Shown here piece by piece: positions 42,756 through 61,055 of a stretch of 64,000 nucleotides of DNA. How positions within the stretch are numbered: the stretch's first letter is position 1; the number at the start of each line of letters is the position of its first letter. Made by a program: the position numbers and the translations under genes. The DNA is from Rhodoferax sp. (GTDB lineage: Bacteria; Pseudomonadota; Gammaproteobacteria; Burkholderiales; Burkholderiaceae_C), in contig NZ_JABBPD010000007.1 of NCBI RefSeq assembly GCF_012927445.1, positions 310,001 to 374,000 of the forward strand, given 5' to 3'. The notes below the pieces were generated by a model. It was not told the DNA's origin and made no database searches. It was given only the letters and a program-made list of their open reading frames with translations.

Positions 42756-44468
42756 TCACAAGGTTCCGGGTTCGCTGTGAGGGTCGGTTGCTGACGCAGC
42801 GACACCTTGAATCTGGCGGTGCTTTAGCCGGTATGCCAATTGCGGTCGGGTCATGCCCAGCAAGCGTGCGGCCTCCGACAGATTGCCACGTGCGCGCGCC
42901 ACAGCGTGGTCCAGCACGAGTGCGTCGATATCTTCCAGTGAGCTGCCGCTGTCCAGAATCCGTGCACACAAGTCGTCATCTTGCGCACTGGGCAATTTGG
43001 CGAGATGGCCATGCGCGTCCAGGCTGGTCTGTACGGAATCAGGCTGGTTCGGAAACAGGTGCGCCACTTCGACCATGCCGGCCTGGGGCGCAAGGATGAC
43101 GCCACGCTCCACCAGGTTTTCCAGTTCGCGGACGTTGCCCGGCCAGTCGTGCTGCAGCAGCGCCTGCAGCGCCCGCTCTTCAAAGCCCAGCACCCGCTTG
43201 CCGTGCAGTGCGCAAAAACGAGCGAGCATGGCTTGGGCCAGTGGCTCAATGTCGGTTTTGCGCTCGCGCAAAGGAGGAATGCAAATCGGGTAAACATTAA
43301 GGCGGTAGAGCAAGTCAGCCCGGAAACGCCCGGCCAGCACGGCCTTTTGCAGATCGACATTGGTGGCCGCGACCAGGCGCACATTGACCTTGCGCGTGGT
43401 CTCCCCGCCCACCCGCTCGATCTCGCCTTCCTGCAAGACGCGCAGCAGTTTGGCCTGGGCGGCCAAGGGCAACTCGCCCACTTCATCGAGGAGCAGGGTG
43501 CCGCCATCGGCGCGCTCAAAACGACCCATACGCAGCGCATGTGCACCGGTGTAAGCGCCCTTTTCAACGCCAAACAATTCGGCCTCTACCAGCTCGGCGG
43601 GCAAGGCTGCGCAATTCACTGCCACAAAGGGCTTGTCGGAACGGCTGGAGAGCTCGTGCAGGGCACGCGCAAAGCGTTCCTTGCCGACGCCGGTTTCACC
43701 GGTCAACAGCACCGTAGCCTGCGTCTGCGCCACCTTTTGCATCAAGGTGTAGGCCTTGCGAAAGGCGGTCGAGTTACCAATCAGCTGGCCGCCCTGGCTA
43801 GCGGGCGCAAGCGTCGACTTCAATGCATCGACCTGCGATTGCAGGGCCTCCATCTTTTCCATCAGGGAATCGTCGTTGAAGTAGACGCGATGGGCTTCGC
43901 CATCAGGCCATTCTTCGATAGGGCGCCCGACGATCTGGCAATGTTCAGCACCACAGGCGGCGCACATGGTTTCCTTGTAAAGGATCAGGCGCCCCATGAA
44001 CGCGCTGGTGTAGCCGCTGGCATAGCCCAGCAGTGTCCAACAGGCCGGGTCTGTATCCAAACCATACTTTTGCTGGTGCGCATAGGCCTCCCAGGAATGG
44101 TCCCAACTGAATTCGCCGTAAAACTGGCCCGCCGCAATGTCGAAGCTGAGCTTGACGGGGGTGACATGGGCCGCCCCTTCGAGCATGAACAGTTGCGGGC
44201 CCACCATGAAACATTCATTCAATGTCATGTCGGGCCGCGTCTTTCTGGCGTACTCCGCATCACACATGCCCGCGGCGTAACCCATGCGCGTCAGAATGCG
44301 CCGCGCATGCTCGGCCCCGATAGAAGTGATCAGGTCCTGGCGCAATGCGGTCAAAGCCATGGTGTGCATCAGCACCATGCGCCGGTCGCCCAACCAGATC
44401 GCGCCGCTGTCCGGCTCAAAGCGAAGCAGGCGTCGCAAATCCTCATTGGGTGGATATTTGAAGCTCAT
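42756..44468 (-). CDS. sigma-54-dependent XylR/DmpR-family activator of the toluene monooxygenase operon
   Basis: This 570-residue activator has an N-terminal aromatic-sensing domain (about 1-200, ending in a V4R segment with a CAACGAEHC cluster). A linker and a AAA+ domain follow, with Walker [15 protein letters not shown] (Tyr in place of Phe in the sigma-54 contact loop GAFTGA) and [11 protein letters not shown]. The Fis-type helix-turn-helix is [22 protein letters not shown]. Members bind a phenol or toluene directly and open sigma-54 promoters. It is divergent from the tmo operon and nearly identical, over most of its length, to the activator at 54001-55707. It probably senses the substrate or its phenolic product. 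Confidence 0.93.
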
Positions 44469-44501: not shown

Positions 44502-44515
44502 TTTTCTCGATATTT
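44502..44515. promoter_or_regulatory. TCGA-centred motif at the activator 1 promoter
   Basis: TTTTCTCGATATTT is the reverse complement of AAATATCGAGAAAA. It is shared with 55742-55755, and its core matches the palindromes next to both sigma-54 promoters. Its centre is 40 bases from the activator start codon, against 41 in the second region. Confidence 0.6.
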
Positions 44516-44705
44516 ATCTATGAACCATTGCCAGGGCGATATTTTTCGGACTTCTGCCAGGATTTGATCATCCAAGCAAAAGTAGCGCTTATCACTTTAT
44601 CGGATGGTAAATATAACCGAGGAAGACCGACAGTTGAGCCAAGGGAAAGCCCTATTGCGCTGAAGTAAAAAAGCCAAATTGGGCTAAAAAGCACCTCGAA
44701 TGATT

Positions 44706-44733
44706 AGGGGTTATCCCTATAAATCTCGAGATT
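44706..44733. promoter_or_regulatory. conserved GGGGTTATCCC plus TCGA-palindrome element, tmo promoter
   Basis: AGGGGTTATCCCT is followed by the perfect 12-bp palindrome AATCTCGAGATT. The palindrome centre is 28 bases upstream of the -24 GG, exactly as in the phenol hydroxylase promoter. It is a candidate binding site for the activator or the GntR repressor. Confidence 0.65.
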
Positions 44734-44753
44734 AATGCCGGCCTAGGCAAAGT

Positions 44754-44769
44754 TGGCAAGGACCTTGCA
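44754..44769 (+). promoter_or_regulatory. sigma-54 promoter of the tmo operon
   Basis: TGGCAAGGACCTTGCA carries the -24 GG and -12 GC with correct ten-base spacing. It differs from the phenol hydroxylase promoter at only one base. Transcription should start near 44781, giving a leader of about 137 bases. Confidence 0.88.
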
Positions 44770-44917
44770 AAGTCACTCAGGCAGGACCTGCCATTTCATA
44801 GCCAAGGAAAACCGGCGTGCCACATCACCGGTATCCGCGCCAAAGACATGGCTAGAAGAATTCTTTTGTTGCATGCACCAAGGCACTTTCGCCACATCTA
44901 AAAAGAGGAGATTTGTA

Positions 44918-46423
44918 ATGGCTTTGCTGAATCGAATGGACTGGTATGACATCGCCAGGGCAACCAACTGGTCGCCGAAATATGTGACAGAGCTGGAGCT
45001 CTTTCCGGCAGACATGGCCGGTGACTATGGGCTGCCCCAGGAAGCGTGGGAAAAATACGATGAGCCTTACAAGCAAACCTATCCTGAATATGTGAAGGTT
45101 CAGCGCGAGAAGGACGCGGGGGCCTACTCGGTCAAGGCCGCGCTGGAGCGTTCCCAAATCTTCGAAAACTCGGACCCGGGCTGGAAGTCGGTGATCAAGT
45201 CCCACTATGGGGCGCTGGCGCGACTTGAATATGCGGCGGCCAGTGCCGAAGCGCGCATGATGCGTTTCTCCAAGGCGCCTGGCATGCGCAATATGGCGAC
45301 GCTCGGCTGTCTGGACGAGATGCGTCACGGGCAGATACAGCTCTATTTCCCGCACGAGCATGTGTCGAAAGATCGCCAGATGGATTGGGCGCACAAGGCC
45401 ATTGACACGAATCAGTGGGCCATGATTGCAGCGCGCCACTTCTTTGACGACATCATGATGACGCGCGATGCCATCAGCGTGTCCATCATGCTGACCTTCA
45501 GCTTTGAAACAGGCTTTACCAACATGCAGTTTCTGGGTTTGGCGGCGGACGCGGCTGAAGCCGGGGACCACACGTTTGCCAGCCTGATCTCCAGCATCCA
45601 GACCGACGAATCGCGCCATGCACAGATCGGCGGCCCGGCGCTGCAGGTGCTGATTGAAAACGGCAAGAAGGCCGAAGCCCAGAAAAAGGTAGACATCGCT
45701 TTCTGGCGTGCCTGGAAGCTCTTCTCCGTTTTGACCGGCCCGGTGATGGATTACTACACGCCCCTCGAACACCGCAAGCAGTCGTTCAAGGAGTTCATGG
45801 AGGAGTGGATCGTTGCCCAGTTTGAGCGCGCCCTGACCGACCTCGGTCTTGACCTGCCATGGTACTGGGACCACTTTCTGGAGCAACTCAGCGAGCAACA
45901 CCACGGCATGCATCTCGGCTCCTACTTCTGGCGGCCTACCATGTTCTGGAATCCGGCAGCGGGCGTGACGCCGGCCGAACGCGAGTGGCTCGAAGAAAAG
46001 TACCCGGGCTGGAACGACACCTGGGGCGAGTGCTGGGACGTGATCATCGACAACGTGGTCGACGGCAACATGGCCATGACCTATCCCGAGACACTGCCCA
46101 TGGTCTGCAACATGTGCAACCTGCCAATCAACTACACGCCGGGCAAGAAGTGGAACGTCAAGGACTTTCCGCTCGAGTACAAGGGCCGCCTGTACCACTT
46201 TGGCTCTGAACAGGATCGCTGGTGTTTCGAGCAGGAACCCGAACGCTATGCCGGGCACTTGAGCCTGGTGGATCGCTTTCTCGCCGGGATGATCCAACCG
46301 ATGGATCTGGGTGGCGCGCTCAACTACATGGGGCTGGCGCCGGGCGAGATTGGTGACGATGCGCACAACTATGCGTGGGCCGAGATTTACAAGGCTATGC
46401 GTGCCGAGAAAAAAGCCAGCTAA
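44918..46423 (+). CDS. tmoA: toluene/benzene monooxygenase hydroxylase alpha subunit
   Basis: This 501-residue diiron hydroxylase subunit is collinear with TmoA of toluene 4-monooxygenase. Iron ligands are all present: Glu104, Glu134, His137, Glu197, Glu231 and His234. Thr201 and the pocket residues Phe176, Phe196 and Phe205 are also conserved. Two pocket positions differ: residue 100 is Leu (Ile in TmoA) and residue 103 is Leu (Gly in TmoA), while Ala107 is kept. AGAGGAG precedes the ATG. It is the first gene of a complete tmoABCDEF-ordered operon. Confidence 0.96.
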   Translation: MALLNRMDWYDIARATNWSPKYVTELELFPADMAGDYGLPQEAWEKYDEPYKQTYPEYVKVQREKDAGAYSVKAALERSQIFENSDPGWKSVIKSHYGALARLEYAAASAEARMMRFSKAPGMRNMATLGCLDEMRHGQIQLYFPHEHVSKDRQMDWAHKAIDTNQWAMIAARHFFDDIMMTRDAISVSIMLTFSFETGFTNMQFLGLAADAAEAGDHTFASLISSIQTDESRHAQIGGPALQVLIENGKKAEAQKKVDIAFWRAWKLFSVLTGPVMDYYTPLEHRKQSFKEFMEEWIVAQFERALTDLGLDLPWYWDHFLEQLSEQHHGMHLGSYFWRPTMFWNPAAGVTPAEREWLEEKYPGWNDTWGECWDVIIDNVVDGNMAMTYPETLPMVCNMCNLPINYTPGKKWNVKDFPLEYKGRLYHFGSEQDRWCFEQEPERYAGHLSLVDRFLAGMIQPMDLGGALNYMGLAPGEIGDDAHNYAWAEIYKAMRAEKKAS

Positions 46424-46493
46424 ACCCCACTGACAGACCAAGTCGCCGGCCACCAGCGCTGGCGCAATGAATAACCCGATACAGGAGACCCCC

Positions 46494-46760
46494 ATGGCCT
46501 TATTTCCTTTGAGTTCAAATTTTGAAGGCGACTTCGTGCTGCAACTGCTGCCGGTCGATACCGAAAACACCATGGACGAAGTGGCTGCGGCCGCCGCCCA
46601 TCACTCGGTGGGGCGGCGCGTGCGTGCCCGTCCAGGCCAGATCCTGCGCATTCGCCGCCAAGGCAGTGAAGAACTCTTGCCACGCACCATGAAGGTGGCG
46701 GAGGCGGGCTTCAAGCCGACAGAAACGATTGAGATCATCTGGGAAGCCCCCAGCCACTGA
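46494..46760 (+). CDS. tmoB: toluene monooxygenase hydroxylase gamma subunit
   Basis: This 88-residue protein matches TmoB, the small ubiquitin-like subunit that caps the hydroxylase. FPLSSNFEGDFVLQLLPVDTENTMDEVA begins the fold and VRARPGQILRIRRQG follows. AGGAG lies eight bases before the ATG. It follows the alpha subunit after 70 bases and precedes the Rieske ferredoxin by 15. Confidence 0.95.
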   Translation: MALFPLSSNFEGDFVLQLLPVDTENTMDEVAAAAAHHSVGRRVRARPGQILRIRRQGSEELLPRTMKVAEAGFKPTETIEIIWEAPSH

Positions 46761-46775
46761 TCAGGAGACGCAAAC

Positions 46776-47111
46776 ATGACATTTAAAAAAGTGTGCACCC
46801 TCGATGACCTGTGGGAAGGTGACATGGAATCATTCGAGGTGGAGGGCCAGGACATTTTGCTGGTCTGTGCCGAGGGTGGCGTGATCAAGGCCTTCCAGGG
46901 AATGTGTCCACACCAGGACATCCCCTTGTCGGAAGGCAAATTTGATGGAAAAACAGTGATCTGCCGGGCGCATCTTTGGCAGTTCGATGCCTGCTCCGGC
47001 AAGGGCATCAATCCATCCGACTGCGCATTGGCCGAGTACCCGGTAAGGATCGAGGGCGAGGATGTGCTGGTCAAAACCGGGGGCATCACACCCCTGTTTG
47101 CGCACACATGA
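46776..47111 (+). CDS. tmoC: toluene monooxygenase Rieske ferredoxin
   Basis: This 111-residue Rieske protein carries the [2Fe-2S] motifs CPHQDIPL and CRAHLWQF (Cys-x-His and Cys-x2-His, 15-20 residues apart). It shuttles electrons from the reductase to the diiron hydroxylase. Its presence separates the four-component toluene monooxygenases from three-component phenol hydroxylases. AGGAGAC precedes the ATG. Confidence 0.96.
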   Translation: MTFKKVCTLDDLWEGDMESFEVEGQDILLVCAEGGVIKAFQGMCPHQDIPLSEGKFDGKTVICRAHLWQFDACSGKGINPSDCALAEYPVRIEGEDVLVKTGGITPLFAHT

Positions 47112-47140
47112 ATTCGGTAGAAAAAAACAAGGAGACAAAA

Positions 47141-47458
47141 ATGAGCAATGCAAATGTAGTTGTCAACAAGCACAGCAACAACCGGGTGGGCCCGGTGATG
47201 CGTGCGGGTGAGTTGGCCATGGCCGTGGCAGAGGCCGCGCGTGAAGACAACCCGGGGCGGGTGATACGGGTGGATGACAAACGCGCCTACCTGCGCATCG
47301 ATACCGATGACGAATTGATTCTGCGGCGCGAGACGATTGAAAACGCGCTGGGACGTCCGTTCAAGATGAATGATCTGGAGGTTGATCTCAGTTCCTTTTC
47401 CGGACGGATTGAGACACTGCCTGACCAGGTGCGTTTCTATTTCGCCACTCATCTTTGA
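47141..47458 (+). CDS. tmoD: toluene monooxygenase effector (coupling) protein
   Basis: This 105-residue cofactor-free protein corresponds to TmoD, which binds the hydroxylase near the active site and couples electron transfer to substrate hydroxylation. VGPVMRAGELAMAVAEAAREDNPGR and VRFYFATHL are typical of the MmoB/DmpM family. AAGGAGAC lies just before the ATG. A longer frame open from 46976 runs inside tmoC and is not used. Confidence 0.94.
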   Translation: MSNANVVVNKHSNNRVGPVMRAGELAMAVAEAAREDNPGRVIRVDDKRAYLRIDTDDELILRRETIENALGRPFKMNDLEVDLSSFSGRIETLPDQVRFYFATHL

Positions 47459-47515
47459 AGTAAACATCCGTGCCGCCCCCTGTCCGGAAACTAGTAATCC
47501 AATAGGAAACAGATC

Positions 47516-48502
47516 ATGTCAGAAGTTCAAGTATTAAAGCCGCTCAAGACCTGGAGTCACCTGGCCGCACGCCGCCGTAAACCCAGCGAATACGAAATCG
47601 TCAGCGCCAACCTGCACTACAACAACCGCGATGCCAACGCGCCGTATGAGCTGGACCCCGAATTGGCCATGAACAAGTGGTACAAGAAAAACACCTTTGG
47701 CAGTCCGCTTCAACATGACGACTGGAATGCCTTTCGTGATCCAGAGGAAGTGGTCTACCGTAGCTACAACATGATGCAGGACGGTCAGGAGAACTATGTC
47801 TCAGGCCTGTTTGACCAGTTCAACACGCGTGAACACGACAAGTCCCTTGACCCCCGTTGGGCCGGCACGCTGGCGCGACTCTACACGCCGGCACGTTACC
47901 TCTTTCACACCTTGCAGATGGCCTCTGCCTACGTGGGACAAGTGGCGCCAGCCAGCACCATCACCAACTGCCATTATTTTCAGATGGCAGATTCCTTCCG
48001 GTGGCTGAGTCATACCGCCTACCGCACCAAAGAACTCTCGCTGGCATTTGCGGACAAGGGTTTTGCGACCGATGAGCGCCATTATTGGGAAACTGATATC
48101 GCATGGCAGGGCTTTCGCGAGTTGATGGAAAAGGTTCTGGTGACCTGGGATTGGGCCGAGGCCTTTGTGGCCCTGAACCTGGTCGCCAAGCCGGCCATCG
48201 ACGAGGCTGTGTTGCGCAAGCTGGGCGAGTCAGCGCGCCACAACGGTGACATGTTGCTGGGCTTGCTGAACGACGCCCAACTGATTGATGCCGCACGCCA
48301 TCGCCGCTGGGCGACTGCGCTGGTGAAGATGGCGCTTGAAAAGCCGGGTAATTTAGAAGTTATCAAAGGCTGGATTGCCAAGTGGGAGCCCTTGGCCGAC
48401 AAGGCGATCGAGGCCTATTGTGGCGCGCTGGCCGATGTGCCTGACGCAGCCTCATCGGCAAAGCAGGCCACCCGCGACTTCCGCCATTCATTGGGGTTGT
48501 AA
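47516..48502 (+). CDS. tmoE: toluene monooxygenase hydroxylase beta subunit
   Basis: This 328-residue subunit has the ferritin-like helical fold of the hydroxylase without the metal site. Family blocks include LKTWSHLAARRRKPSEYEIVS at the N-terminus, LYTPARYLFHTLQMASAYVGQVAPASTITNC and WDWAEAFVALNLV. It assembles with alpha and gamma as (alpha-beta-gamma)2. A GGAAAC-type ribosome site precedes the ATG. A stem-loop separates it from the reductase gene. Confidence 0.95.
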   Translation: MSEVQVLKPLKTWSHLAARRRKPSEYEIVSANLHYNNRDANAPYELDPELAMNKWYKKNTFGSPLQHDDWNAFRDPEEVVYRSYNMMQDGQENYVSGLFDQFNTREHDKSLDPRWAGTLARLYTPARYLFHTLQMASAYVGQVAPASTITNCHYFQMADSFRWLSHTAYRTKELSLAFADKGFATDERHYWETDIAWQGFRELMEKVLVTWDWAEAFVALNLVAKPAIDEAVLRKLGESARHNGDMLLGLLNDAQLIDAARHRRWATALVKMALEKPGNLEVIKGWIAKWEPLADKAIEAYCGALADVPDAASSAKQATRDFRHSLGL

Positions 48503-48515
48503 GTTCGTTCCTGGC

Positions 48516-48548
48516 GTACCGCAGGCACCAGCTAGGCGCCTGCGGTGC
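48516..48548. other. stem-loop between tmoE and tmoF
   Basis: Arms ACCGCAGGC and GCCTGCGGT, extendable by a G-C pair, flank an 11-base loop in the 75-base tmoE-tmoF gap. There is no U-tract. It could slow or process the transcript so that less reductase than hydroxylase is made. Base composition becomes visibly more AT-rich after it. Confidence 0.5.
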
Positions 48549-48577
48549 AGCCAAAAACCCATTAATTGGAATTGTTT

Positions 48578-49600
48578 ATGACCCAAGCCAGAATAACGAC
48601 TGAAGGCGAAGAAAGTACCTTTGACCAAGTGGGCGGAGACACCGTCTTGCGTGCTGCCTTGCGCGCAGGTGTTGGTTTCCCTTACGAATGCAACTCAGGT
48701 GGTTGTGGTAGTTGCAAGTTCGAAGTGCTTGAAGGGGACGTTGAGAATCTTTGGCCGGAGGCGCCGGGCCTTACCGAGCGAGACCGACGAAAAGGGCGCC
48801 TGCTGGCCTGTCAATGTCGGGCCCGCACCGACCTGCGCATCAAGGTACGGATCGCACCAGAATGTTTGCACGTCATCACGCCCAAGCGTCTTCGCGCGAG
48901 ATTCGTTGCCATGCGCGAGATCACGCATGACATTCGCGAGTTCCGATTTGTCTCTGAAGGCAGCGCTGATTTTCTGCCTGGTCAGTACGCGATGCTTGCA
49001 ATTCCTGGGGTCAGCACGCCCCGTGCTTATTCCATGTCAAATGTCGGCAACAACGAAGGTGAATGGCACTTTCAGATTCGCCGTGTTGCCAATGGTGTGG
49101 CCACTGACAAACTATTTCATCATCTTCACGCCGGAGACGAGATCGAGATAGATGGCCCTTACGGCCTCGCCTATTTGAGAACAGAGGTCGCACGCGACAT
49201 CGTCTGCGTGGCGGGGGGGTCCGGCTTGGCGCCCATGGTTTCGATTGCCCGAAAGGCAGCGCAATCCGGCATGCTGAAGACGCGTCAGCTCCACTTTTTT
49301 TATGGCGGCAGAACACCAAGCGATATCTGTGGTGAAACCTTTCTGCGCGAGCTACCCGGCTATGGTGATCGCATTCATTTTCATCCGGTAGTTTCGCTGC
49401 CCCATGATGATTCTGGCGCACATTGGAGCGGTGAAACAGGTTTTGTCCATGAACTGGTGAGACGTGTTTTTGGGGATGCCTTGCCCAACTTTGAGTTTTA
49501 CTTTGCCGGTCCACCGCCGATGACGCAGACCTTGCAGGAAATGTTGATGGTGGGTTACCAGGTCCCTTTCGAACAAATTCACTTCGATCGTTTCTATTGA
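48578..49600 (+). CDS. tmoF: toluene monooxygenase NADH reductase
   Basis: This 340-residue flavoprotein has an N-terminal plant-type [2Fe-2S] domain (CNSGGCGSC, later Cys in LACQC). FAD-binding (RAYSMSNVG) and NADH-binding (VCVAGGSGLAPMVSI) domains follow. It takes electrons from NADH to the Rieske ferredoxin. The ATG at 48578 is used; a frame from 48566 adds four residues only. Codon use is more AT-rich than in tmoA-E, which hints that this gene and those after it have a different history. Confidence 0.94.
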   Translation: MTQARITTEGEESTFDQVGGDTVLRAALRAGVGFPYECNSGGCGSCKFEVLEGDVENLWPEAPGLTERDRRKGRLLACQCRARTDLRIKVRIAPECLHVITPKRLRARFVAMREITHDIREFRFVSEGSADFLPGQYAMLAIPGVSTPRAYSMSNVGNNEGEWHFQIRRVANGVATDKLFHHLHAGDEIEIDGPYGLAYLRTEVARDIVCVAGGSGLAPMVSIARKAAQSGMLKTRQLHFFYGGRTPSDICGETFLRELPGYGDRIHFHPVVSLPHDDSGAHWSGETGFVHELVRRVFGDALPNFEFYFAGPPPMTQTLQEMLMVGYQVPFEQIHFDRFY

Positions 49601-49689
49601 ATCCGAAGATCGTGGGCTTCAGTCCGCAATTTAAGGTTCTTATTCATTGGCAATAAAAATTTACTCAAAAAAATTGAGGAGACAAACAA

Positions 49690-51066
49690 ATGAAATCAAA
49701 AATCAATACGCTTAGCGTCATCGCCGTGGCGTGTCTGGCCGCAACATCTCAAATGGCCCATGCCACAGAAGTCTTCCGACTTGAGGGTTACGGACCAATT
49801 TCGCGTGCCATGGGCGGGACGGCCACGGCATTCAATGTAGGCGCCGCTGGCATGATGGCCAACCCGGCAACCTTGTCGTTGATGGCCCCAGGTTCTGAGT
49901 TTTATCTTGGACTGGATCTGATAAGCACCGACATTAAGGTAACGAACCAGGTAACGGGAGAAAGTATCTCGTCTAATACTCACTCCAGTAACAGAGGCCC
50001 CTATCTTGCGCCAGAGCTTGCTTTTACGCACCGAAATGGTGAACTGACATTGGGTGTTGGCGCCTTTGCCCAAGGTGGATTGGGGACTGAATATGGCAAT
50101 AGCAGCTTTCTTTCCCGTGCGGCTGGTGGGTTGAACACCGGGCTCGAAAACTCAAGCCGTCTGTTGGTATTGAACATTCCGTTTGTAGCGAGTTACCAAG
50201 TCAACGACAAGCTGACTGTTGGGGGGAGCATTGATGCGATGTGGCAAGGCTTGAACCTCAATCTATTGCTTGGCGCTGGCCAAGTTGGCTCGTTGATCGG
50301 ATCAGGACGAGTGCAAGGAAGCCTGTTGCCGGTGCTGGGTGGTCTACCGGACATGCGCGGCGCCCATTTCAGCATGACCAAGAACGAGCCCCTGGCCAGT
50401 GGTGTTGAATCCTGGGGCTTTGGTGGGCGTATCGGGATGACATACAAGGTGTCAAATGAGACCATGTTCGGGCTCGACTACGCCATGGAAAGCCAGATGA
50501 ATGACATGGAAGGGCGAGCCACACTCACAGCGATTGATGGCATTGCGGGGCAAATCCCTTTGCAAGGCGCGATCAAGCTGCGGAATTTCCAGATGCCCGC
50601 TAAGCTAGACCTCGGCTTGAGCCACCGCTTTAATGATCAGTGGATGATGGCAGTCGACGTGTCACAAGTATTCTGGGAGCACGCGATGAAAGATATCAGT
50701 GTTGGGTTTGTGACAGACAGCGGGCAAACCCTCGATATCCAATTGCCACAAAACTACAAGGATCAAACCATCTTGGCTTTTGGTGTTGCGTACCAGACCG
50801 GCAATTGGACGCTGCGTAGTGGGGCGCGGCTGGCGACCCAGGCGCTTCGCTCAGAAACGCTTTTGGCCGTGATTCCTGCAACCCCAAGAAAACATATTTC
50901 CGCCGGGTTTTCTTACGCTTTCTCCAAGGATGACAGCGTTGATTTTGCATATTTTCACGCCTTTGAAGAGTCTATGAGTAACGCAAGCTTGCCAAATACT
51001 GCGGATCCGATACAGACGACGCATTCGCAAAACAATGCGACTATCGGTTATACGCACAGGTTCTAA
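49690..51066 (+). CDS. FadL/TodX-type outer-membrane aromatic hydrocarbon channel
   Basis: This 458-residue protein has a signal peptide of about 25 residues, ending near MAHATEVF. The mature N-terminus RLEGYGPISRAMGGTATAFN is the hatch-domain signature of FadL homologues such as TodX and TbuX. A long series of amphipathic strands follows, and the C-terminus ends in Phe (YTHRF) as outer-membrane barrels do. It should let toluene or benzene cross the outer membrane. GAGGAGAC precedes the ATG. It follows tmoF by 89 bases without a clear terminator. The region is distinctly AT-richer than the hydroxylase genes. Confidence 0.92.
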   Translation: MKSKINTLSVIAVACLAATSQMAHATEVFRLEGYGPISRAMGGTATAFNVGAAGMMANPATLSLMAPGSEFYLGLDLISTDIKVTNQVTGESISSNTHSSNRGPYLAPELAFTHRNGELTLGVGAFAQGGLGTEYGNSSFLSRAAGGLNTGLENSSRLLVLNIPFVASYQVNDKLTVGGSIDAMWQGLNLNLLLGAGQVGSLIGSGRVQGSLLPVLGGLPDMRGAHFSMTKNEPLASGVESWGFGGRIGMTYKVSNETMFGLDYAMESQMNDMEGRATLTAIDGIAGQIPLQGAIKLRNFQMPAKLDLGLSHRFNDQWMMAVDVSQVFWEHAMKDISVGFVTDSGQTLDIQLPQNYKDQTILAFGVAYQTGNWTLRSGARLATQALRSETLLAVIPATPRKHISAGFSYAFSKDDSVDFAYFHAFEESMSNASLPNTADPIQTTHSQNNATIGYTHRF

Positions 51067-51354
51067 CAGGCTTCTGAAATACCCTCAGCCAGCTCACACC
51101 GACTGAGCCTCAAGCGTTTACTTGAGATCAGTTATCAGTAGTGTTTCAACGTTCTTCTCTGAAGAATGTTGGGCACTAATGATATTTTTTCTTGAGAAAT
51201 GCAATTTTTAGTGGGTCGCGGAATGACTAACCCACAGCACAAAATATGCCAAGAAGACGCTACACAAATATTCAAAAATGAGAGAAGAACAAGCTTCAAT
51301 TTTCTAAAGAAAAGATGCTTGAAGCCTACTTACTCCTATAAAACGCGAACCCCC

Positions 51355-53082
51355 ATGTATAAAAATATTCGTATCACCCATCGCATGTTGTCGGTATTGG
51401 TGATTTACTGGATTACTTTCTTGATCACGGTAGCCGTTGGCTGGACAGGTCTTCACTTAGCCAGTGAAAGCCTCAAAAGTGTGCATGAAATCCGTATGGG
51501 GTCGACACTGAAATTAAATAAAATTTCTAATCTTCTGGATCAAAACAAAAGTCAAATTTTGTTGGCGTTTCAGCATGACCCCGCTAGCCCACTCGCCTCA
51601 ATGCATGACCATCCTTTGGCTACTCACCTGGAGGTCATCAGCAAAAACAGTGAGGTCATTGAGAAGCTTTGGCGAGACTACTTGACCAATCCCCACTCGC
51701 CTGAAGAAGCCGTCTTAGCTAAAGAGGTTGAGATAAAGCGTGCTGCTTGGTTAGATAAATTTACGCAGACGGTTATCGCCCTAAATAATCAAGACTTCTC
51801 TTCGGCGACCATGGCCAAGTTTTTACTGGCCGCGCGAACTGAAGGCCAAGCGAATGTTGATGCCACGAGTGCCCTCATCGATCAGCAGACCCAAATGGCG
51901 AAAGAAGAAGTTGCAAAGGCTGAGCTGAACTACCACCGCATCTTGGTTGTATTTTTACTGGGTGCCGTGCTGGGTGGCCTGCCGGCGTCCGTCATCATGA
52001 CTACTGCGTTACGCCGCTTGAGCACAGGATTTGCGTTGGTGACGACGACTGCAGGCGCCATTGCGCAGGGTGATCTGTCCCAATCCGTCGCCGCTGACGG
52101 CCGTGATGAAATTGGACAGATGCTGAGTCAGTTGGCGCAGATGCAGGAAAACCTGGCGAAAGTTGTCGCCGACGTACGCATCGGCTCGGAGAGCGTGGCC
52201 ACCGCCAGTTCGCAGATTGCCTCCGGCAACCACGACCTCTCGGCCCGCACCGAACAACAGGCCAGCGCCCTGGAAGAAACCGCCGCTTCCATGGAAGAGC
52301 TCAGCGCCACCGTCAAACAAAACGCCGACAGTGCCCGCCAAGCCAACCAGCTGGCCCTGAGCGCCAGCACCACCGCCATCCAGGGTGGCGAGGTCGTCAA
52401 CCAGGTGGTCGACACCATGAAGCACATCAACGACAGCTCCAACCGGATCGCCGACATCATCAGTGTGATTGACGGCATTGCCTTCCAGACCAATATTCTG
52501 GCTTTGAATGCCGCGGTGGAAGCCGCCCGTGCGGGCGAGCAGGGCCGCGGCTTTGCGGTGGTGGCCAGCGAGGTGCGCAGTTTGGCCGGGCGCTCGGCGG
52601 AAGCCGCCAAGGAGATCAAGGGCTTGATCAATGCCAGCGTGGAGCGGGTCGAGCAAGGTTGCGTTCTGGTCGATCAGGCCGGCACCACCATGACGGAAGT
52701 CGTGAGCTCCATCAAACGCGTGACCGACCTCATGGGCGAGATCAGTGCCGCCAGCAACGAGCAAAGCCAGGGCGTGTCGCAAGTGGGCGAGGCGGTCATG
52801 CAAATGGACCAGGTGACGCAGCAAAACGCCGCCTTGGTCGAAGAAATGGCGGCGGCGGCCAGCAGCCTGAAGTCGCAGGCGCAAGAACTGGTCGGCACGG
52901 TGGCGGTGTTCAAACTGAGCTCGGGCACGGTCCCCGTTCGCGCGACCAGTCCGCAAAAACAGGCCTTTAAAGGCGTCGAGAAACGGAGCAACCGACCGGC
53001 CCGACTGACCCCGCCGCGTGTGGCCCTGCCACCCGGAAAATCAACATCGACCCAAAACAACACGGAATGGGAAAGCTTTTAA
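51355..53082 (+). CDS. methyl-accepting chemotaxis protein, apparently mosaic
   Basis: This 575-residue receptor has TM1 (about 14-35), a periplasmic four-helix-bundle-like sensor (about 40-195), TM2 (about 198-220) and a HAMP-like linker. A signalling domain follows with the hairpin [35 protein letters not shown], and the C-terminus EWESF is a CheR/CheB-binding pentapeptide. Behind a toluene monooxygenase and a FadL channel it probably mediates taxis to aromatic hydrocarbons. Base composition changes sharply near 52100: the sensor half is AT-rich and the signalling half is GC-rich, like resident genes. The ATG at 51355 is chosen; the long upstream extension lacks coding character. Confidence 0.92.
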
Positions 53083-53087
53083 GCACC

Positions 53088-53250
53088 GTGAGAACCAACC
53101 TACCCGTCACCGAGCGCGAATACCAGTTCCCTGGTAGGGAGACCTTGCTCTCTGACACTGACAAGACCAGTCACATTTCGTATGCCAATGCGGCGTTTAT
53201 CTGGACCAGTGGCTACGCCCCTTGCGAGTTGATGGCGCAAAGCGCTACCG
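53088..53250 (+). pseudogene. truncated 5' fragment of an Aer-type aerotaxis receptor gene
   Basis: Starting with GTG five bases after the chemoreceptor stop, the frame reads RTNLPVTEREYQFPGRETLL, then SYANAAFIWTSGYAPCELMAQ. This is the start of the PAS domain of Aer receptors. Similarity ends after about 50 residues; the FAD-binding rest of the PAS, the membrane anchor and the signalling domain are all missing. It is a fragment left at a recombination junction, immediately before the GntR gene on the other strand. Confidence 0.82.
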
Positions 53251-53290
53251 CTGCCAGCAGCATGGCCAACCAGCAAAGTGGAGGCGATGC

Positions 53291-54001
53291 TCATCCGAGC
53301 TGGGTCTGGCGTTTGACGATGTCGTGCGTCAAACGCACATGGGCCTCCAGGGCCAGGGCAGCACGCGCTTCCTGATGGTCAAGGGTGGCGCGAAAAATAT
53401 CTTCGTGTTCGCGGTGCACATCGCGCCCGCTGGCGTGGGCCGCGGTCAGGCGCCAGTTGATGTTGCGGTAGCGCTCGGCGTGGCGGTACAGGATCGACAG
53501 CAGGTACTTGCTCCAGGTCGAATCGAAGCCGGCAATCAGTGCCTCATGAAAGGCCTTGTTGCGCCGCTCCCAGCGGTCTGAGCCGGACTCTGCGAGATCC
53601 ACTTCGGTCTTGGTCAGCAGTTCGTAACTTTGAACCAGCGCGGCTTCCCATTGCGCATCGCCATGGCGGATGGACTGGCGCAAGGCCTCGGTTTCCAGCA
53701 TCACGCGCGTGTTGGTCACGTCTTCTAGATCGGCCAGTGAGATCGGTGTCACCCGAAAACCGCGCTGCCCCTCGGAGGTGACCAACGCGTCAGACACCAG
53801 CAGGGACAAGGCCTCGCGCAATGTCCCGGCACCGACCTCGTACTGGTCCTTCAGGTGCTCTACGCGCAGTCGCTCGCCGGGGGCGAGCTTGCCGCACACC
53901 ACGTCATGGCGCAGGCTTAAGTAAGCGCGTTCGACCAGGGTGCGGGGCACCACCGTGTCAGGGTCCGGGTCGGTCCCCAGTTTTTTTTGAATGGTTGACA
54001 T
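53291..54001 (-). CDS. GntR/FCD-family repressor of phenol degradation (AphS/PhcS-like)
   Basis: This protein of about 236 residues has an N-terminal winged helix (LRVEHLKDQYEVGAGTLREALSLLVSDALVTSE, about 45-77). An FCD C-terminal domain follows, with metal-binding-type residues in RRNKAFHEALIAG and HREHEDIFRATLDH. Its ATG overlaps the stop of the second activator by one base, so the two are co-translated. In Comamonas testosteroni a GntR repressor (AphS/PhcS) paired with an XylR/DmpR-type activator controls phenol hydroxylase, so the same role is likely here. Its operator may be the TCGA-centred palindrome repeated at both promoters. Confidence 0.88.
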   Translation of the reverse strand: MSTIQKKLGTDPDPDTVVPRTLVERAYLSLRHDVVCGKLAPGERLRVEHLKDQYEVGAGTLREALSLLVSDALVTSEGQRGFRVTPISLADLEDVTNTRVMLETEALRQSIRHGDAQWEAALVQSYELLTKTEVDLAESGSDRWERRNKAFHEALIAGFDSTWSKYLLSILYRHAERYRNINWRLTAAHASGRDVHREHEDIFRATLDHQEARAALALEAHVRLTHDIVKRQTQLG

Positions 54002-55707
54002 CAAATTGCTCCGGGTTCGCGGTTGAGTTCGGTTGTAGACGCGCCGCGATTCTGGCGCTGCTTTTGCCGGTAGGCCATTTGCGGACGGGTCAGACCCAGC
54101 AGGCGTGCCGCCTCCGACAAGTTGCCCCGGGCGCGCGCCATCGCATGGTCCAGCACGCGTGCCTCAATCTCTTCCAGTGAGCTGCCGCTGTCCAGAATGC
54201 GCGTGCTCAAGTCGTCGTCCTGCGCCGTTGGCAAGGGGACGAGATGGCCGTGCGCGTCCAGACTGGTCTGCGCCGCGTCAGGCTGGTTGGGAAAGAGATG
54301 TTCGACTTCGACCATGCCGGACTGGCTCGCAAGGATCACGCCACGCTCGACCAGGTTTTCCAGTTCGCGCACATTGCCCGGCCAGTCGTGCTGCAGCAGC
54401 GCCTGCAGCGCGCGCTCTTCAAAGCCCAGCACGCGCTTGCTGTGCAACACGCAAAAGCGGGCGAGCATGCCCTGGGCCAAGAGCTCGATGTCGGACTTGC
54501 GCTCGCGCAGCGGTGGAATACAGATGGGATAGATATTGAGGCGGTACATCAGGTCGCGCCGGAAACGCCCGGCCTCAACGGCTTTTTCCAGGTCGACATT
54601 GGTGGCCGCCACCAGGCGCACATTGACCTTGCGCGTGGTCTCTCCGCCCACCCGCTCGATCTCGCCTTCCTGCAAGACGCGCAGCAGTTTGGCTTGGGCT
54701 GCCAGCGGCATTTCTCCGACCTCGTCGAGCAGCAGGGTGCCGCCATCGGCGCGCTCAAAGCGGCCCGCACGCGCCGCGTGCGCGCCGGTGTAAGCGCCTT
54801 TTTCCACGCCAAACAGTTCGGCCTCAATCAGTTCGGCAGGCAGGGCCGCGCAATTCACCGCCACAAAAGGTCCACCGGCGCGGCTGGAGAGTTCGTGCAG
54901 GGCGCGCGCAAAACGCTCCTTGCCGACGCCAGTTTCTCCGGTCAACAACACGGTGGCCTGGGTTGGCGCCACCTTCTGCATCAAGGTGTAGGCCTTGCGA
55001 AAGGCGGTGGATTTGCCAATCAACTGGCCGCCCTGGCTGGCAGGCTCCAACGTGGATTTCAGGGCCTCCACCTGCGATTGCAGGGCTTCCATCTTTTCCA
55101 TCAGGGAGTCGTCGGTGAAATACACGCGATGCGCCTCGCCGTCCGGCCATTCCTCAATCGGTCGGCCGATGATCTGACAATGGTCCGCGCCACAGGCGGC
55201 GCACTCGGTCTCCTTGAACAGGATCAGCCGGCCCATGAAGGCACTGGTATAGCCGCTGGCATAGCCCTGCAATGTCCAGCAGGCAGGCTCGTCCACCAGG
55301 CCGAACTTCTGCCGGTGGGCGTAGGCCTCCCAGGAATGGTCCCAGCGGAAGTCACCATAAAACTGGCCCGCCGCAATGTCGAAGCTGAGATTGACGGGGG
55401 TGACACGTGCTGCGCCTTCGAGCATGTGCAGCTGGGGTCCGACCATGAAACTGTCTTGCAAGGTCTCGCCGGGGCGCATCTTTTTGGCGTATTCGGCATC
55501 GGACAGGCCTGAGGCGTAGCCCATGCGCGTCAGGATGCGCCGCGCATGCTCAGCGCCGACCGAGCTCATCAGGTCCTGGCGCAAAGCGGCCAGTGCGTTG
55601 GTGTGCATCAGCACCATGCGCCGGTCACCCAGCCAGATCGCGCCACTGTCCGGCTCGAAGCGCAACAGGCGCCGCAAGTCACTGTCCGGGGGGTATTTGA
55701 GGCTCAT
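54001..55707 (-). CDS. sigma-54-dependent XylR/DmpR-family activator of the phenol hydroxylase operon
   Basis: This 568-residue protein has the same architecture as the activator at 42756-44468: aromatic-sensing domain, V4R segment with [12 protein letters not shown]+ domain with GETGVGKE and GAYTGA, and Fis-type helix-turn-helix. Most residues are identical; differences cluster in the N-terminal sensor and the extreme C-terminus. It is divergent from the dmp operon and coupled to the GntR gene. Homologues (DmpR, PhcR, AphR) bind phenols directly. The pair probably arose by duplication of an activator plus its divergent promoter region. The ATG at 55707 matches the paralogue's start. Confidence 0.94.
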
Positions 55708-55741
55708 GTGCAGATCATCTCGCGGTAGGGCTAAAAGGCCA

Positions 55742-55755
55742 TTTTCTCGATATTT
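55742..55755. promoter_or_regulatory. TCGA-centred motif at the activator 2 promoter
   Basis: TTTTCTCGATATTT is identical to 44502-44515. Its centre lies 41 bases from the activator 2 start codon. It is a candidate operator for GntR or activator autoregulation. Confidence 0.6.
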
Positions 55756-55943
55756 TGAATCCGTGACCAAACAGTCAGATTGCCTGATCGACTTCCTCAA
55801 ATTGATCATTTGGTGAATTTTATCTGTTTTGAATGCATCAAATGCCGAAGTTTCCCTAATATGGCTGAATTATTGGTCTACGGGTAAGCCCTATCTCAGG
55901 CCAAATTCGACCCCGTTTCTTTGCGTGAGGTGGCCGGATTTGT

Positions 55944-55978
55944 AGGGGTTATCCCTTGAAATATCGAGATTTCAAGGG
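55944..55978. promoter_or_regulatory. conserved GGGGTTATCCC plus TCGA-palindrome element, dmp promoter
   Basis: AGGGGTTATCCCT overlaps a 26-bp inverted repeat with arms CCCTTGAAAT and ATTTCAAGGG around a TCGA core (one mismatched pair). Its centre is 28 bases upstream of the -24 GG, the same distance as in the tmo promoter. Confidence 0.68.
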
Positions 55979-55991
55979 GTTTGCCATTTTT

Positions 55992-56007
55992 TGGCAAGGT
56001 CCTTGCA
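55992..56007 (+). promoter_or_regulatory. sigma-54 promoter of the phenol hydroxylase operon
   Basis: TGGCAAGGTCCTTGCA has the -24 GG and -12 GC with ten-base spacing, and differs from the tmo promoter at one base. Transcription should start about 12 bases after the -12 element, some 17 bases before dmpK. Confidence 0.9.
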
Positions 56008-56035: not shown

Positions 56036-56311
56036 ATGAACATGACATTCGCCCCATCAACAGCCCCGACCTCAGGGACCAACGCGCCGTGCAACGGTAG
56101 CCAGGAGTTCTCGCCTGTGCCCGCTGCTGCCGATGGACTCCGCTGCGATGTCACGCGCAAGTTTGTCCGCATCAAGCAAGTTCGTGCCGACGGTCTGGTG
56201 TGTTTTGAGTTCGCCATTGGCTGGCCTGAGTTGTTTGTTGACTTGATGTTGCCTCAAGCTGCCTTTGACGATTTTTGCGTCCAGCAGCACGTGCAACGTT
56301 TAAGCGATTGA
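56036..56311 (+). CDS. dmpK: phenol hydroxylase assembly protein DmpK
   Basis: This 91-residue protein is the small first gene product of phenol hydroxylase operons. The conserved half is TRKFVRIKQVRADGLVCFEFAIGWPELFVDLMLPQAAFDDFC. DmpK-type proteins bind the hydroxylase and are thought to help insert iron into it, without being part of the active complex. The ATG at 56036 lies shortly after the sigma-54 promoter. A first part rich in Pro, Ser and Thr is variable in the family. Confidence 0.92.
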   Translation: MNMTFAPSTAPTSGTNAPCNGSQEFSPVPAAADGLRCDVTRKFVRIKQVRADGLVCFEFAIGWPELFVDLMLPQAAFDDFCVQQHVQRLSD

Positions 56312-56349
56312 TTCCCAGCGCAGTTTCTTTTCTAAAAAGGATAGTTCAC

Positions 56350-57348
56350 ATGTCAGTAGATCTTCACACCCGTGAAATTAAGCCGTTACGCAACACTTAT
56401 ACGCAGACAGCGAAATACGTTGGCAATGACAAACCTGCCTCGCGCTACCAGGAGGCGACTTTGGGTACGCAGCCGACGGCCAATTTCCATTACCGCCCCA
56501 CCTGGGACCCGGCGCACGAAATCTTTGATGCCTCCCGCTCGGCCATCAAGCTGCTCGACTGGAATGCCCTGCGCGACCCGCGGCAGTACTACTACGCCAC
56601 CTGGACCATGGCCCGTGCACGCCAGCAGGATGCCATTGAGGCGAGTTACGAGTTCGTGGACTCCCGTGGCCTGCTCGCCAAGCTGCCCGACGCCGTGCGT
56701 TCCAAGGTGTGCCAGGTGCTGATGCCGCTGCGCCACGTGGCCTGGGGTGGCAATATGAACAACAGCTCGATTGGCGCTTATGGTTACGGCACGCCGTTTA
56801 CGGCACCGGCCATGTTCCACGCCATGGACCAACTGGGCGCTGCGCAATTCATCACCCGCCTGGGCCTGGCGCTGGATGAGCCCGGTGTGTTGCAAGCCGG
56901 CAAGAACGACTGGCTGAAAGACGCCCGCTGGCAAGAGCTGCGCCACTACGTGGAAGACACACTGGTGTTGCAGGACCCGTTTGAACTCTTTATTGCCCAG
57001 AACTTTGCCCTGGACGGCCAGCTCTACCCGCTGATGTTCGGCAGCTTTGTGGACGATCACATCGTGCCGCAGGGTGGCACCGCGGTGGCCATGCTCACCG
57101 CCTTCATGCCCGAGTGGCACAGCGAGAGCGCGCGCTGGATTGATGCGGTACTCAAAGTCGCTGCCGCCGAATCGGCGGACAACAAGCAATTGATTGCTGG
57201 CTGGGTCAAGACCTGGGCCGATCGCGCCCAGATGGCGCTCGCTCCGGTGGCCGAACTCGCCCTGGGCGCTGAAGGCCAGCAGGCACTCCAGGAGGCACGC
57301 GCCAGCCTGGACCAGCGCGGCAAAAAGGCCGGCATCGCAGCCGCCTGA
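56350..57348 (+). CDS. dmpL: phenol hydroxylase beta (small hydroxylase) subunit DmpL
   Basis: This 332-residue hydroxylase beta subunit begins VDLHTREIKPLRNTYTQTAKYVG, typical of DmpL/PhcL. FHYRPTWDPAHEIFDASRSAIKL, WNALRDPRQYYYATW and the central LRHVAWGGNMNNSSIGAYGYG follow. It pairs with DmpN and DmpO in the (alpha-beta-gamma)2 oxygenase and lacks the diiron site. AAAGGATAG precedes the ATG. Confidence 0.95.
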   Translation: MSVDLHTREIKPLRNTYTQTAKYVGNDKPASRYQEATLGTQPTANFHYRPTWDPAHEIFDASRSAIKLLDWNALRDPRQYYYATWTMARARQQDAIEASYEFVDSRGLLAKLPDAVRSKVCQVLMPLRHVAWGGNMNNSSIGAYGYGTPFTAPAMFHAMDQLGAAQFITRLGLALDEPGVLQAGKNDWLKDARWQELRHYVEDTLVLQDPFELFIAQNFALDGQLYPLMFGSFVDDHIVPQGGTAVAMLTAFMPEWHSESARWIDAVLKVAAAESADNKQLIAGWVKTWADRAQMALAPVAELALGAEGQQALQEARASLDQRGKKAGIAAA

Positions 57349-57379
57349 GCATCACAAAAAAATAAAAGGAGACACCCCC

Positions 57380-57649
57380 ATGTCCAATGTATTCATTGCC
57401 TTCCAGGACAACGAAGATTCGCGTCCCATCATCGAAGCCATCCTGGCCGACAACGCCACGGCAGAGGCCAGCTACCCGACCGGTCTGGTGAGGATTGTTG
57501 CGCCCGACAGCCTGGTGATACGTCGCTCAACCATTGAAGAGCTGATTGGACGCTCCTTCAATCTGCAACAGATCCACGTCAACCTGGTGACTCTCTCAGG
57601 CCACATTGACGAAGACGACGACCAGCTCTCGCTGAGCTGGACGCACTGA
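57380..57649 (+). CDS. dmpM: phenol hydroxylase regulatory (coupling) protein DmpM
   Basis: This 89-residue cofactor-free effector has FIAFQDNEDSRPIIEAILADN, then GLVRIVAPDSLVIRRSTIEELIGRSFNLQQIHVNLVTLSGHIDEDDD, as in DmpM/MmoB. It binds the hydroxylase and stimulates turnover. AAAAGGAGAC lies eight bases before the ATG. It has 31 bases to dmpL and 26 to dmpN. Confidence 0.95.
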   Translation: MSNVFIAFQDNEDSRPIIEAILADNATAEASYPTGLVRIVAPDSLVIRRSTIEELIGRSFNLQQIHVNLVTLSGHIDEDDDQLSLSWTH

Positions 57650-57675
57650 ACCCGAACACCCTCAGGAGACAAAAA

Positions 57676-59235
57676 ATGGACACCCCTGTCATCAAGAAAA
57701 AGCTCGGTCTGAAGGACCGCTACGCCGCCATGACCCGCGACCTCGCCTGGGACACCACCTACCAGCCGATGGACAAGGTCTTCCCCTATGACAAATACGA
57801 GGGCATCAAGATCCACGACTGGGACAAATGGGAAGACCCGTTCCGCCTGACCATGGACGCCTACTGGAAGTACCAGGGCGAAAAAGAGAAGAAGCTGTAT
57901 GCGGTGATTGAGGCTTTTGCCCAGAACAACGGCCAGCTCGGCATCACCGATGCGCGCTATGTCAATGCGCTCAAGCTGTTCCTGACCGGTGTCACGCCGC
58001 TGGAGTATTACGCCTACCGTGGCTTCGCCCATGCCGGGCGCCAGTTCACCGGCGCCGGTGCCCGCGTGGCCTGCCAGATGCAGTCGATTGACGAGTTGCG
58101 CCACTACCAGACCGAGACGCACGCCCTCAGTCACTACAACAAGTACTTCAACGGTCTGCACAGCCCGCAGCACATGTTTGACCGTGTGTGGTACCTGTCA
58201 GTGCCCAAGTCCTTCTTTGAAGATGCCTACAGCGGCGGACCCTTCGAGTTTCTCACCGCTGTCAGCTTCTCGTTTGAATACGTGCTGACCAACCTGTTGT
58301 TCGTGCCCTTTATGTCGGGTGCCGCGCACAACGGCGACATGTCCACCGTGACCTTTGGTTTCAGCGCGCAGTCGGATGAGTCGCGCCACATGACGCTGGG
58401 CATTGAGTGCATCAAGTTCATGCTGGAGCAGGACCCTGACAACGTGCCCATCGTGCAGGGCTGGATCGACAAATGGTTCTGGCGTGGTTACCGCCTGCTC
58501 AGCATCGTGGCCATGATGCAGGACTACATGTTGCCCAAGCGCGTGATGAGCTGGCGCGAAAGCTGGGAAATGTATGTGGAAGATAACGGCGAAGCCCTGT
58601 TCAAGGACCTGGCCCGCTATGGCATCCGCAAACCCAAGGGCTGGATACAGGCTTGCGAAGGCAAGGACCACATCAGCCACCAGACCTTCGCGGTGTTCTA
58701 CAACTACAACGCCGCGGCGGCCATCCACACCTGGATTCCTGACGAGGGAGAAATGGCCTGGCTGTCGGAGAAGTACCCCGAGACTTTCGATTCGGTCTAC
58801 AAACCGCGCTGGGACTACTGGCGTGAGCAGGCCGCGAAGGGCAACCGCTTCTACCAGAAGACCCTGCCCATGCTGTGCCAGACCTGCCAGATCCCCATGA
58901 TCTTCACCGAGCCGGGCGATGCCACCAAGATCGCTTACCGCGAGTCCGACTACCTGGGCAACAAGTACCACTGCTGCAGCGACCACTGCAAGGAAATCTT
59001 TGACAACGAGCCCGAGAAGTATGTGCAGGCCTGGTTGCCACCGCATCAGATTTACCAGGGCAACTGCTTCAAGCCCGATGTCGATCCGACCAAGGAAGGC
59101 TTTGATCCGTTGCTGGCGGTGCTGGACTACTACAACATGAAGGTCGGCAGCGACAACTTCGACTTTGACGGTTCAGAAGACCAGAAGAACTTTGCCGCCT
59201 GGCGCGGCGATACCAACGAAGGAGCAAAAAAATGA
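57676..59235 (+). CDS. dmpN: phenol hydroxylase alpha (large oxygenase) subunit DmpN
   Basis: This 519-residue diiron oxygenase subunit has iron ligands visible as Glu110 (TPLEYYAY), Glu140 and His143 (DELRHY), Glu in SFEYVLTN, and Glu-x2-His in SDESRHMTLG. Pocket residues Val106 and Ala113, numbered as in toluene ortho-monooxygenase, are the usual ones, and Leu109 precedes the first ligand. The C-terminus has a YHS-type metal-binding segment (HCCSDHCKEIFDNEPEKYV). It hydroxylates phenol, and probably cresols and benzene, to catechols. Its stop overlaps dmpO in an ATGA. Confidence 0.97.
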   Translation: MDTPVIKKKLGLKDRYAAMTRDLAWDTTYQPMDKVFPYDKYEGIKIHDWDKWEDPFRLTMDAYWKYQGEKEKKLYAVIEAFAQNNGQLGITDARYVNALKLFLTGVTPLEYYAYRGFAHAGRQFTGAGARVACQMQSIDELRHYQTETHALSHYNKYFNGLHSPQHMFDRVWYLSVPKSFFEDAYSGGPFEFLTAVSFSFEYVLTNLLFVPFMSGAAHNGDMSTVTFGFSAQSDESRHMTLGIECIKFMLEQDPDNVPIVQGWIDKWFWRGYRLLSIVAMMQDYMLPKRVMSWRESWEMYVEDNGEALFKDLARYGIRKPKGWIQACEGKDHISHQTFAVFYNYNAAAAIHTWIPDEGEMAWLSEKYPETFDSVYKPRWDYWREQAAKGNRFYQKTLPMLCQTCQIPMIFTEPGDATKIAYRESDYLGNKYHCCSDHCKEIFDNEPEKYVQAWLPPHQIYQGNCFKPDVDPTKEGFDPLLAVLDYYNMKVGSDNFDFDGSEDQKNFAAWRGDTNEGAKK

Positions 59236-59588
59236 GCGTCATCGCCCTCAAACCCTACAGCTTTCCTGCCAAGGACGTGCGGGAAAACTTCCCCGCACCG
59301 CTGCTCTTCATCGGCTGGGAAGACCACCTGATGTTTGGCACACCGATTGCCTTGCCCCTGCCACCGGACACGCCGTTTGGCGCACTAGGCGCGGCGGTGC
59401 TGCCCGGCACCTATGGCTACCACCCGGACTTTGCCAAGATCGATTGGAGCAAGGTCGAGTGGTTGAAGTCGGGCCAACCCTGGTCGCCCGATCCGGCCAA
59501 GTCGCTGGCTGAAAACGGCTTGAAGCACAAGGACGTAATCCGCTTTCGCACCCCCGGACTCTCGGGCCTGAACGGCTCCTGCAATTAA
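59232..59588 (+). CDS. dmpO: phenol hydroxylase gamma subunit DmpO
   Basis: This 118-residue third hydroxylase subunit has the family blocks YSFPAKDVRENFPAPLLFIGWEDHLMFG and YGYHPDFAKIDWSKVEW. It surrounds the alpha subunit in the complex. The ATG overlaps the dmpN stop. The reductase gene follows after 17 bases. Confidence 0.95.
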   Translation: MSVIALKPYSFPAKDVRENFPAPLLFIGWEDHLMFGTPIALPLPPDTPFGALGAAVLPGTYGYHPDFAKIDWSKVEWLKSGQPWSPDPAKSLAENGLKHKDVIRFRTPGLSGLNGSCN

Positions 59589-59605
59589 GCGCCACTGGAC
59601 CGACC

Positions 59606-60670: not shown

Positions 60671-60682
60671 GGAGCCATCACC

Positions 60683-61030: not shown

Positions 61031-61055
61031 TTATTTTTACAACGAGGAGACATCA

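Follow-up and report, generated by a model that had tools for sequence, protein, structure and literature searches.

A window of 64,000 nucleotides from a Rhodoferax sp. contig, which is the whole stretch of DNA analysed here, contains a toluene monooxygenase (tmo) operon and a phenol hydroxylase (aph) operon. Each faces a divergent activator gene of the XylR/DmpR type, and one of the two activator genes is coupled to a gene for a GntR/FCD regulator. Similar palindromes occur twice in each control region. Which protein binds them, and can a single regulator gene act on both operons? A sequence-only reading of this DNA had proposed that the four palindromes are one operator linking both operons and both activators, plausibly bound by the GntR protein.

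The palindromes and their setting

The four TCGA-centred palindromes are present where that reading placed them and can be read directly in the sequence (Table 1). Its fourth site, given as 55953-55978, is indeed a 26-nt palindrome that encloses O2-aph, but the outer arms are absent from the other three sites. The promoter-side copies, described as lying about 28 bases upstream of the -24 GG, are centred 27.5 nt before the first G of the -24 element (44755 and 55993) in both regions, or 34 nt from operator start to GG. Activator-side copies were put at 40-41 bases from the start codon; the measured centres are at 40.5 nt (O1-tmo, activator 1) and 41.5 nt (O1-aph, activator 2). The two O1 sites have the same sequence over 14 nt, and the two O2 sites differ at two positions.

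Table 1. Features of the two control regions and neighbouring genes (positions in the window)
Feature	Position	Strand	Remarks
Activator 1	42756..44468	-	XylR_N + V4R + sigma-54 AAA + HTH_8; divergent from tmo
O1-tmo, predicted activator-side AphS-type operator TTTTCTCGATATTT	44502..44515		3 mismatches to 14-nt consensus
UAS candidate (XylR/DmpR type), tmo region	44564..44579		5/16 mismatches; best in this region but weak, reached by 139/1000 shuffles
Second element, tmo AGGGGTTATCCCT	44706..44718		2 nt upstream of O2-tmo
O2-tmo, predicted promoter-side operator AAATCTCGAGATTA	44721..44734		1 mismatch to 14-nt consensus
Sigma-54 type -24/-12, tmo operon TGGCAAGGACCTTGC	44754..44768	+	
Toluene monooxygenase genes and TodX/TbuX-like porin	44918..51066	+	TmoA-like, TmoB, Rieske, second Phenol_Hydrox subunit, reductase, porin
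GntR/FCD predicted repressor (AphS-like)	53291..54001	-	ATG overlaps activator 2 stop codon (TGATG)
Activator 2 (AphR-like)	54001..55707	-	XylR_N + V4R + sigma-54 AAA + HTH_8; divergent from phenol hydroxylase
O1-aph, predicted activator-side operator TTTTCTCGATATTT	55742..55755		3 mismatches to 14-nt consensus
UAS candidate (XylR/DmpR type), aph region	55802..55817		3/16 mismatches; reached by 2/1000 shuffles
Second element, aph AGGGGTTATCCCT	55944..55956		2 nt upstream of O2-aph
O2-aph, predicted promoter-side operator AAATATCGAGATTT	55959..55972		0 mismatches to 14-nt consensus
Sigma-54 type -24/-12, phenol hydroxylase operon TGGCAAGGTCCTTGC	55992..56006	+	
Phenol hydroxylase operon through catechol 2,3-dioxygenase	56037..62000	+	start approximate
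Phenol hydroxylase large subunit	57676-59235		within operon

Sites of this kind are rare by chance. For example, the 64-kb window has three copies of ATATCGAGA where 0.04 are expected (0/100 shuffles reach three); TCTCGAGA alone, found once, is at chance level (0.40 expected; 36/100 shuffles). At least two sites at ≤3 mismatches appeared in 7/1000 (tmo) and 5/1000 (aph) dinucleotide shuffles of the two intergenic regions. Exact matches to AATMTCGAKATT in the 3.94-Mb genome are the two promoter-side sites only. A search for a wider regulon gave no further exact 12-mer site in the genome, and all 19 places with one mismatch lie inside stop-to-stop open frames of at least 103 codons, a length that does not by itself prove coding. 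No regulon target beyond the tmo and aph regions is proposed in this genome.

The published operator of the regulators AphS and BphS is AAATmTCGAkATTT (PMC6449761). All four palindromes match it, the promoter-side sites closely and the activator-side sites poorly (Table 1). The protein encoded beside activator 2 has both domains of the AphS/BphS type (Pfam GntR, 1.9e-16; FCD, 1.7e-13), and its gene is placed like aphS, overlapping an aphR-type activator gene that is transcribed away from the phenol hydroxylase genes; an aphRS operon is given as the usual arrangement in the available text of PMC6449761. It is 64% identical to the Ideonella homologue, 61% to that of Achromobacter, and 45% to the GntR protein heading the bph genes in P. 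naphthalenivorans CJ2, which is taken for BphS on the strength of the same text. The genome has a single GntR of AphS type (the next best are 29% and 25% identical), which would then act on both regions. On this sequence evidence the four palindromes are very probably docking sites, as predicted, of one known repressor type, AphS.

The two activators are 85% identical. A scan of both control regions for sigma-70 promoters of the activator genes found none. The IHF consensus used is WATCAANNNNTTR. Between the UAS and the -24 element, where an IHF-dependent sigma-54 promoter would carry it, an IHF-like site was found in neither region, and 37 matches (≤1 mismatch) occur elsewhere in the window. 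A gene for a methyl-accepting chemotaxis receptor (TarH-type, 51199-53082) lies behind the tmo genes and porin and is convergent with aphS.

Co-occurrence of the motif with the repressor gene

The home family was represented by 349 genomes, 81 of which have 93 activator matches (E≤1e-150) and 53 a GntR match (E≤1e-40). Of 93 control regions, 92 were examined (90 from family genomes and the two of the window), with 700 nt scanned. Where the activator has an adjacent GntR gene and a divergent phenol hydroxylase, the motif was found in 27 of 37 regions at ≤2 mismatches and in 34 at ≤3; the three regions with no site at ≤3 mismatches are L117, where O1 is found at 4, L124 and L133. With an adjacent GntR gene and another neighbour (L102 and L107) the motif was present in 0/2 at ≤2 and 1/2 at ≤3 mismatches. 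Activators lacking an adjacent GntR gene had it in 0/52 regions at ≤2 and 1/52 at ≤3 mismatches; these comprise regions with no phenol hydroxylase (0/47 and 1/47) and regions with one (0/5 at both thresholds). The tmo side of the window, not counted among them, has the motif at both thresholds (1/1). In the five genomes with phenol hydroxylase and no operator, no GntR relative was detected at E≤1e-25. These counts, from many genomes of one family, support the view that in the home family the motif follows the GntR gene, not the activator.

The same counts bear on whether the XylR/DmpR-type activators could themselves be what binds there. The palindromes adjoin each activator gene and flank its presumed site, but the 52 empty control regions at ≤2 mismatches belong to related activators, and the UAS-like sequence differs from the palindromes and sits elsewhere in the region. 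This reading is extremely improbable and was rejected. Assignment of one common operator to tmo, phenol hydroxylase and both activators, for the GntR protein beside activator 2, draws support from the published motif and from the co-occurrence.

Another collection holds 66 GntR loci, 45 of which include an activator (L017 and L023 are incomplete). Of these 45, 44 have a site with up to 3 mismatches no more than 600 nt from the activator; only L033 has none. All 11 Azoarcus/Thauera-like loci have a site, and in nine the GntR gene is kilobases away from the activator. Plasmids of Ideonella dechloratans and Achromobacter pestifer carry GntR, O1 and O2, with O2 35 nt before the GG. One isolate, Rhodoferax ferrireducens OTU1, has two loci with this GntR type (L002 and L004). 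On a Pandoraea pnomenusa plasmid (L277) the aphS relative matches residues 12-169 only and an IS6 transposase gene is annotated just beyond, which suggests an interruption of the regulator gene.

Outside the home family the link between motif and GntR is looser. For 31 phenol hydroxylase loci, with 900 nt upstream scanned at ≤2 mismatches, the motif was found in 6/16 from genomes with a GntR match at E≤1e-25 (L211, L216, L223, L226, L227 and L228; the L216 site is without the TCGA core), in 1/3 from genomes with no match (L225), and in 0/12 from genomes not screened for GntR. The GntR-bearing genomes G504, G780, G551 and G952 had no site at ≤2 mismatches within these 900 nt.

Spacing and a second element beside the promoter-side operator

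The sequence-only reading was staked in part on related clusters having the motif at the same spacing, and that is where it is found. The two collections, which may share some genomes, supplied 62 non-identical promoters. In these the distance from operator start to GG-N10-GC is 34 nt in 39, 35 nt in 15 and 36 nt in 3, or 57 of 62. The other five read at 29, 30, 30, 33 and 46 nt, with a second reading of 35 nt for L130 and 34 nt for L030.

One conceivable mechanism is a DNA loop of about 218 bp, formed by AphS bridging O1 and O2; in its favour are the paired operators, separated by 214-221 nt in 39 of the 66 regions that have both. In the other 27 regions the O1-O2 distances lack 10.5-bp phasing (R 0.25), whereas the UAS-O2 distances are phased (R 0.77) in those 17 whose UAS has ≤4 mismatches. 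The p-values take no account of kinship; O1 was accepted at up to 5 mismatches if the TCGA core was present, so some O1 calls are possibly wrong. Phasing of the activator site and not of O1 with O2 argues against a repression loop, which is not favoured and appears unlikely.

Most of the related promoters examined have a second conserved palindrome, consensus TAGGGNTTWNCCCT, with only 1-2 nt between it and the promoter-side operator downstream. CCC stands just 5' of the operator in 61/64 promoters, and 58 have it 6 or 5 nt away. In two groups of promoters (n=32 and 27) positions -16 to -3 have 1.29 and 0.85 bits per column. The flank has 0.11 and 0.10, and the operator, to which the alignment was anchored, 1.56 and 1.47. 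A loose-consensus scan of both strands of 700 nt found the element at ≤2 mismatches in 37/38 AphS-type regions, but also in 18/49 and 3/5 others; at ≤1 mismatch the figures are 24/38 versus 4/49 and 0/5. Across the whole genome the consensus gave 97 forward and 81 reverse matches versus 52 and 63 for a reversed control pattern, and the consensus alone is therefore not specific.

The element also occurs where AphS is missing. When sequence upstream of -24 was scored with a matrix for 26 AphS-less sites, the near relatives L153, L160 and L161 scored 14-15 (0/200 shuffles), L157 scored 9.7, and the remainder 5.5 or less. A second run covered 19 further or repeated sequences, eight with a usable promoter. 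L265, from a genome (G315) classed as AphS-less by a GntR search at E≤1e-40, scored 12.5 (0/300 shuffles); L262, L263, L264 and L274 gave 3.7-5.4, at 59-60 nt; L161 repeated its result; and the AphS-bearing L272 and L273 scored 21.6 and 16.6. In L165 the element is visible by eye. The distance from CCC to GG is mostly 40-42 nt with AphS; without it the values are 29 (L153), 19 (L160 and L161), about 20 (L165) and 41 (L265). These distances, from about four lineages, suggest helical phasing. Among the 31 phenol hydroxylase loci outside the home family the element was above threshold in three: L223, which has a nearby GntR gene and the operator, and L225 and L237, with no GntR in the stretch examined. 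Some 30-45 nt upstream of O2, four Comamonas-like loci (L015, L016, L019 and L021) carry the element once more in inverted form, as GGAAAACCAT opposite ATGGTTTTCC or a near match.

The element occurs without AphS, and lineages differ in its distance to -24 (19-20, 29 and 40-42 nt) by roughly one or two turns of the helix; both observations could point to a separate factor binding there. We tentatively suggest, as a real possibility that we would stop short of favouring, that TAGGGNTTWNCCCT is an undescribed protein-binding palindrome of this family's phenol hydroxylase and tmo sigma-54 promoters; a factor, perhaps IHF-like architecturally, may bind it and AphS may exclude or block that factor. 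Among the papers listed by a literature search with the element strings, none concerned such promoters, judged by title, which is no proof of absence.

The tmo region, the proposed circuit and known systems

O2 is upstream of tmoA in all six distinct cases with a divergent activator (the window, L003, L011, L206, L004 and L012; L207 and L205 look like L004 and L012 again). On the tmo side L011 keeps both O1 and O2, L003 keeps O2 and has O1 only at 4 mismatches, and L206 has O2 alone at ≤3 mismatches. In L004 and L012 it is the activator-GntR pair that lies opposite tmo. The divergent-activator arrangement is not general, because 16 other genomes (14 family loci and L208-L210, one genome appearing twice) show neither activator nor operator in the 1.3-3 kb upstream of tmoA, although the operon start may lie further off. 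In four of these the tmoA relative is only about 50% identical; a search for GntR at E≤1e-40 was positive in 10 of the 14 family genomes, with only 41% identity in G266.

In a tree of 25 activators the tmo-side activator of the window forms one clade (100/99) with L003, L011 and L206 (L003 and L206 are fragments of 184 and 376 aa). This clade adjoins the aph-linked L013. L004 and L012 are elsewhere in the tree, so two changes of label are needed.

The 85% identity of the activators, the alignment of the two control regions and the place of the tmo-side clade next to an aph-linked activator would also fit matched sites and spacings that are leftovers of duplication, now functionless on the tmo side. 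Against this, that alignment shows O1, O2, the second element and -24/-12 conserved amid sequence much of which has drifted, and tmo-side sites are kept in L011, L003 and L206, whose activators are of the same clade. We regard mere leftovers as quite improbable. The results suggest instead that the tmo region joined a resident repressor by copying of the activator-plus-operator region, with aphS staying single: the tmo-side activator and control region would be a diverged aph-type copy that kept its operators, so that one aphS gene could act on both regions.

At the level of sequence, the motif, its placement and its co-occurrence with the repressor gene in the home family are established. Taken as a whole, it is highly likely that the palindromes are operators of the 53291-54001 repressor, with O1/O2 repression as proposed below and a copied tmo region. 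Without inducer, AphS dimers would occupy O2, between the activator site and -24/-12, and hinder activation by the XylR/DmpR-type activator at each sigma-54 promoter. Dimers on O1, beside the activator start codon, would lower activator expression and, on the aph side, that of AphS itself. O2 does not overlap -24/-12, and we infer its mode of repression. Cross-regulation of both operons by the GntR protein, as the sequence-only reading had it, is likewise supported by sequence comparison as a prediction for this locus; it is not general, as the 1.3-3 kb upstream of tmoA in the 16 other genomes show, nor is it new, having already been predicted in PMC6449761. Most of the circuit is ordinary, already predicted control, and the neighbouring element is the new question. 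The rigid position of O2 and that element are precise targets for studying GntR repression of a sigma-54 promoter that the repressor leaves uncovered.

The closest precedent is aphRS of Comamonas testosteroni TA441 (PhcS in strain R5), where, in the available text of PMC3063778 and PMC6763649, a GntR gene is right behind a XylR/DmpR-type activator gene, as in the window. In TA441 the aphR-driven activation of phenol hydroxylase is reported to be fully shut down by AphS, one of whose sites lies outside the UAS, at a putative IHF site (PMC3063778). Interference of AphS with IHF has been proposed in print; for the window this was set aside, as neither region has an IHF-like site (≤1 mismatch). 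In contrast to TA441, the window has a second, tmo-linked activator region with the same operators and no aphS of its own. BphS of biphenyl operons is a close AphS homologue with the same motif; it heads the biphenyl operon, and LB400 and CJ2 are described as having BphS but lacking AphR (available text of PMC6449761).

A literature search on the link between AphS and tmo found only PMC6449761 and PMC2907700. AphS control is predicted in the former, as far as its available text goes, for tmo and tbuX in R. eutropha JMP134 and R. pickettii 12J and for tmo-tbuX in D. aromatica RCB. These three strains, like the window, have predicted AphS sites at both toluene monooxygenase and aph genes (PMC6449761). 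Unlike theirs, the tmo operon of the window has its own divergent activator, the 85% identical relative of the aph-side one, together with an O1/O2 region.
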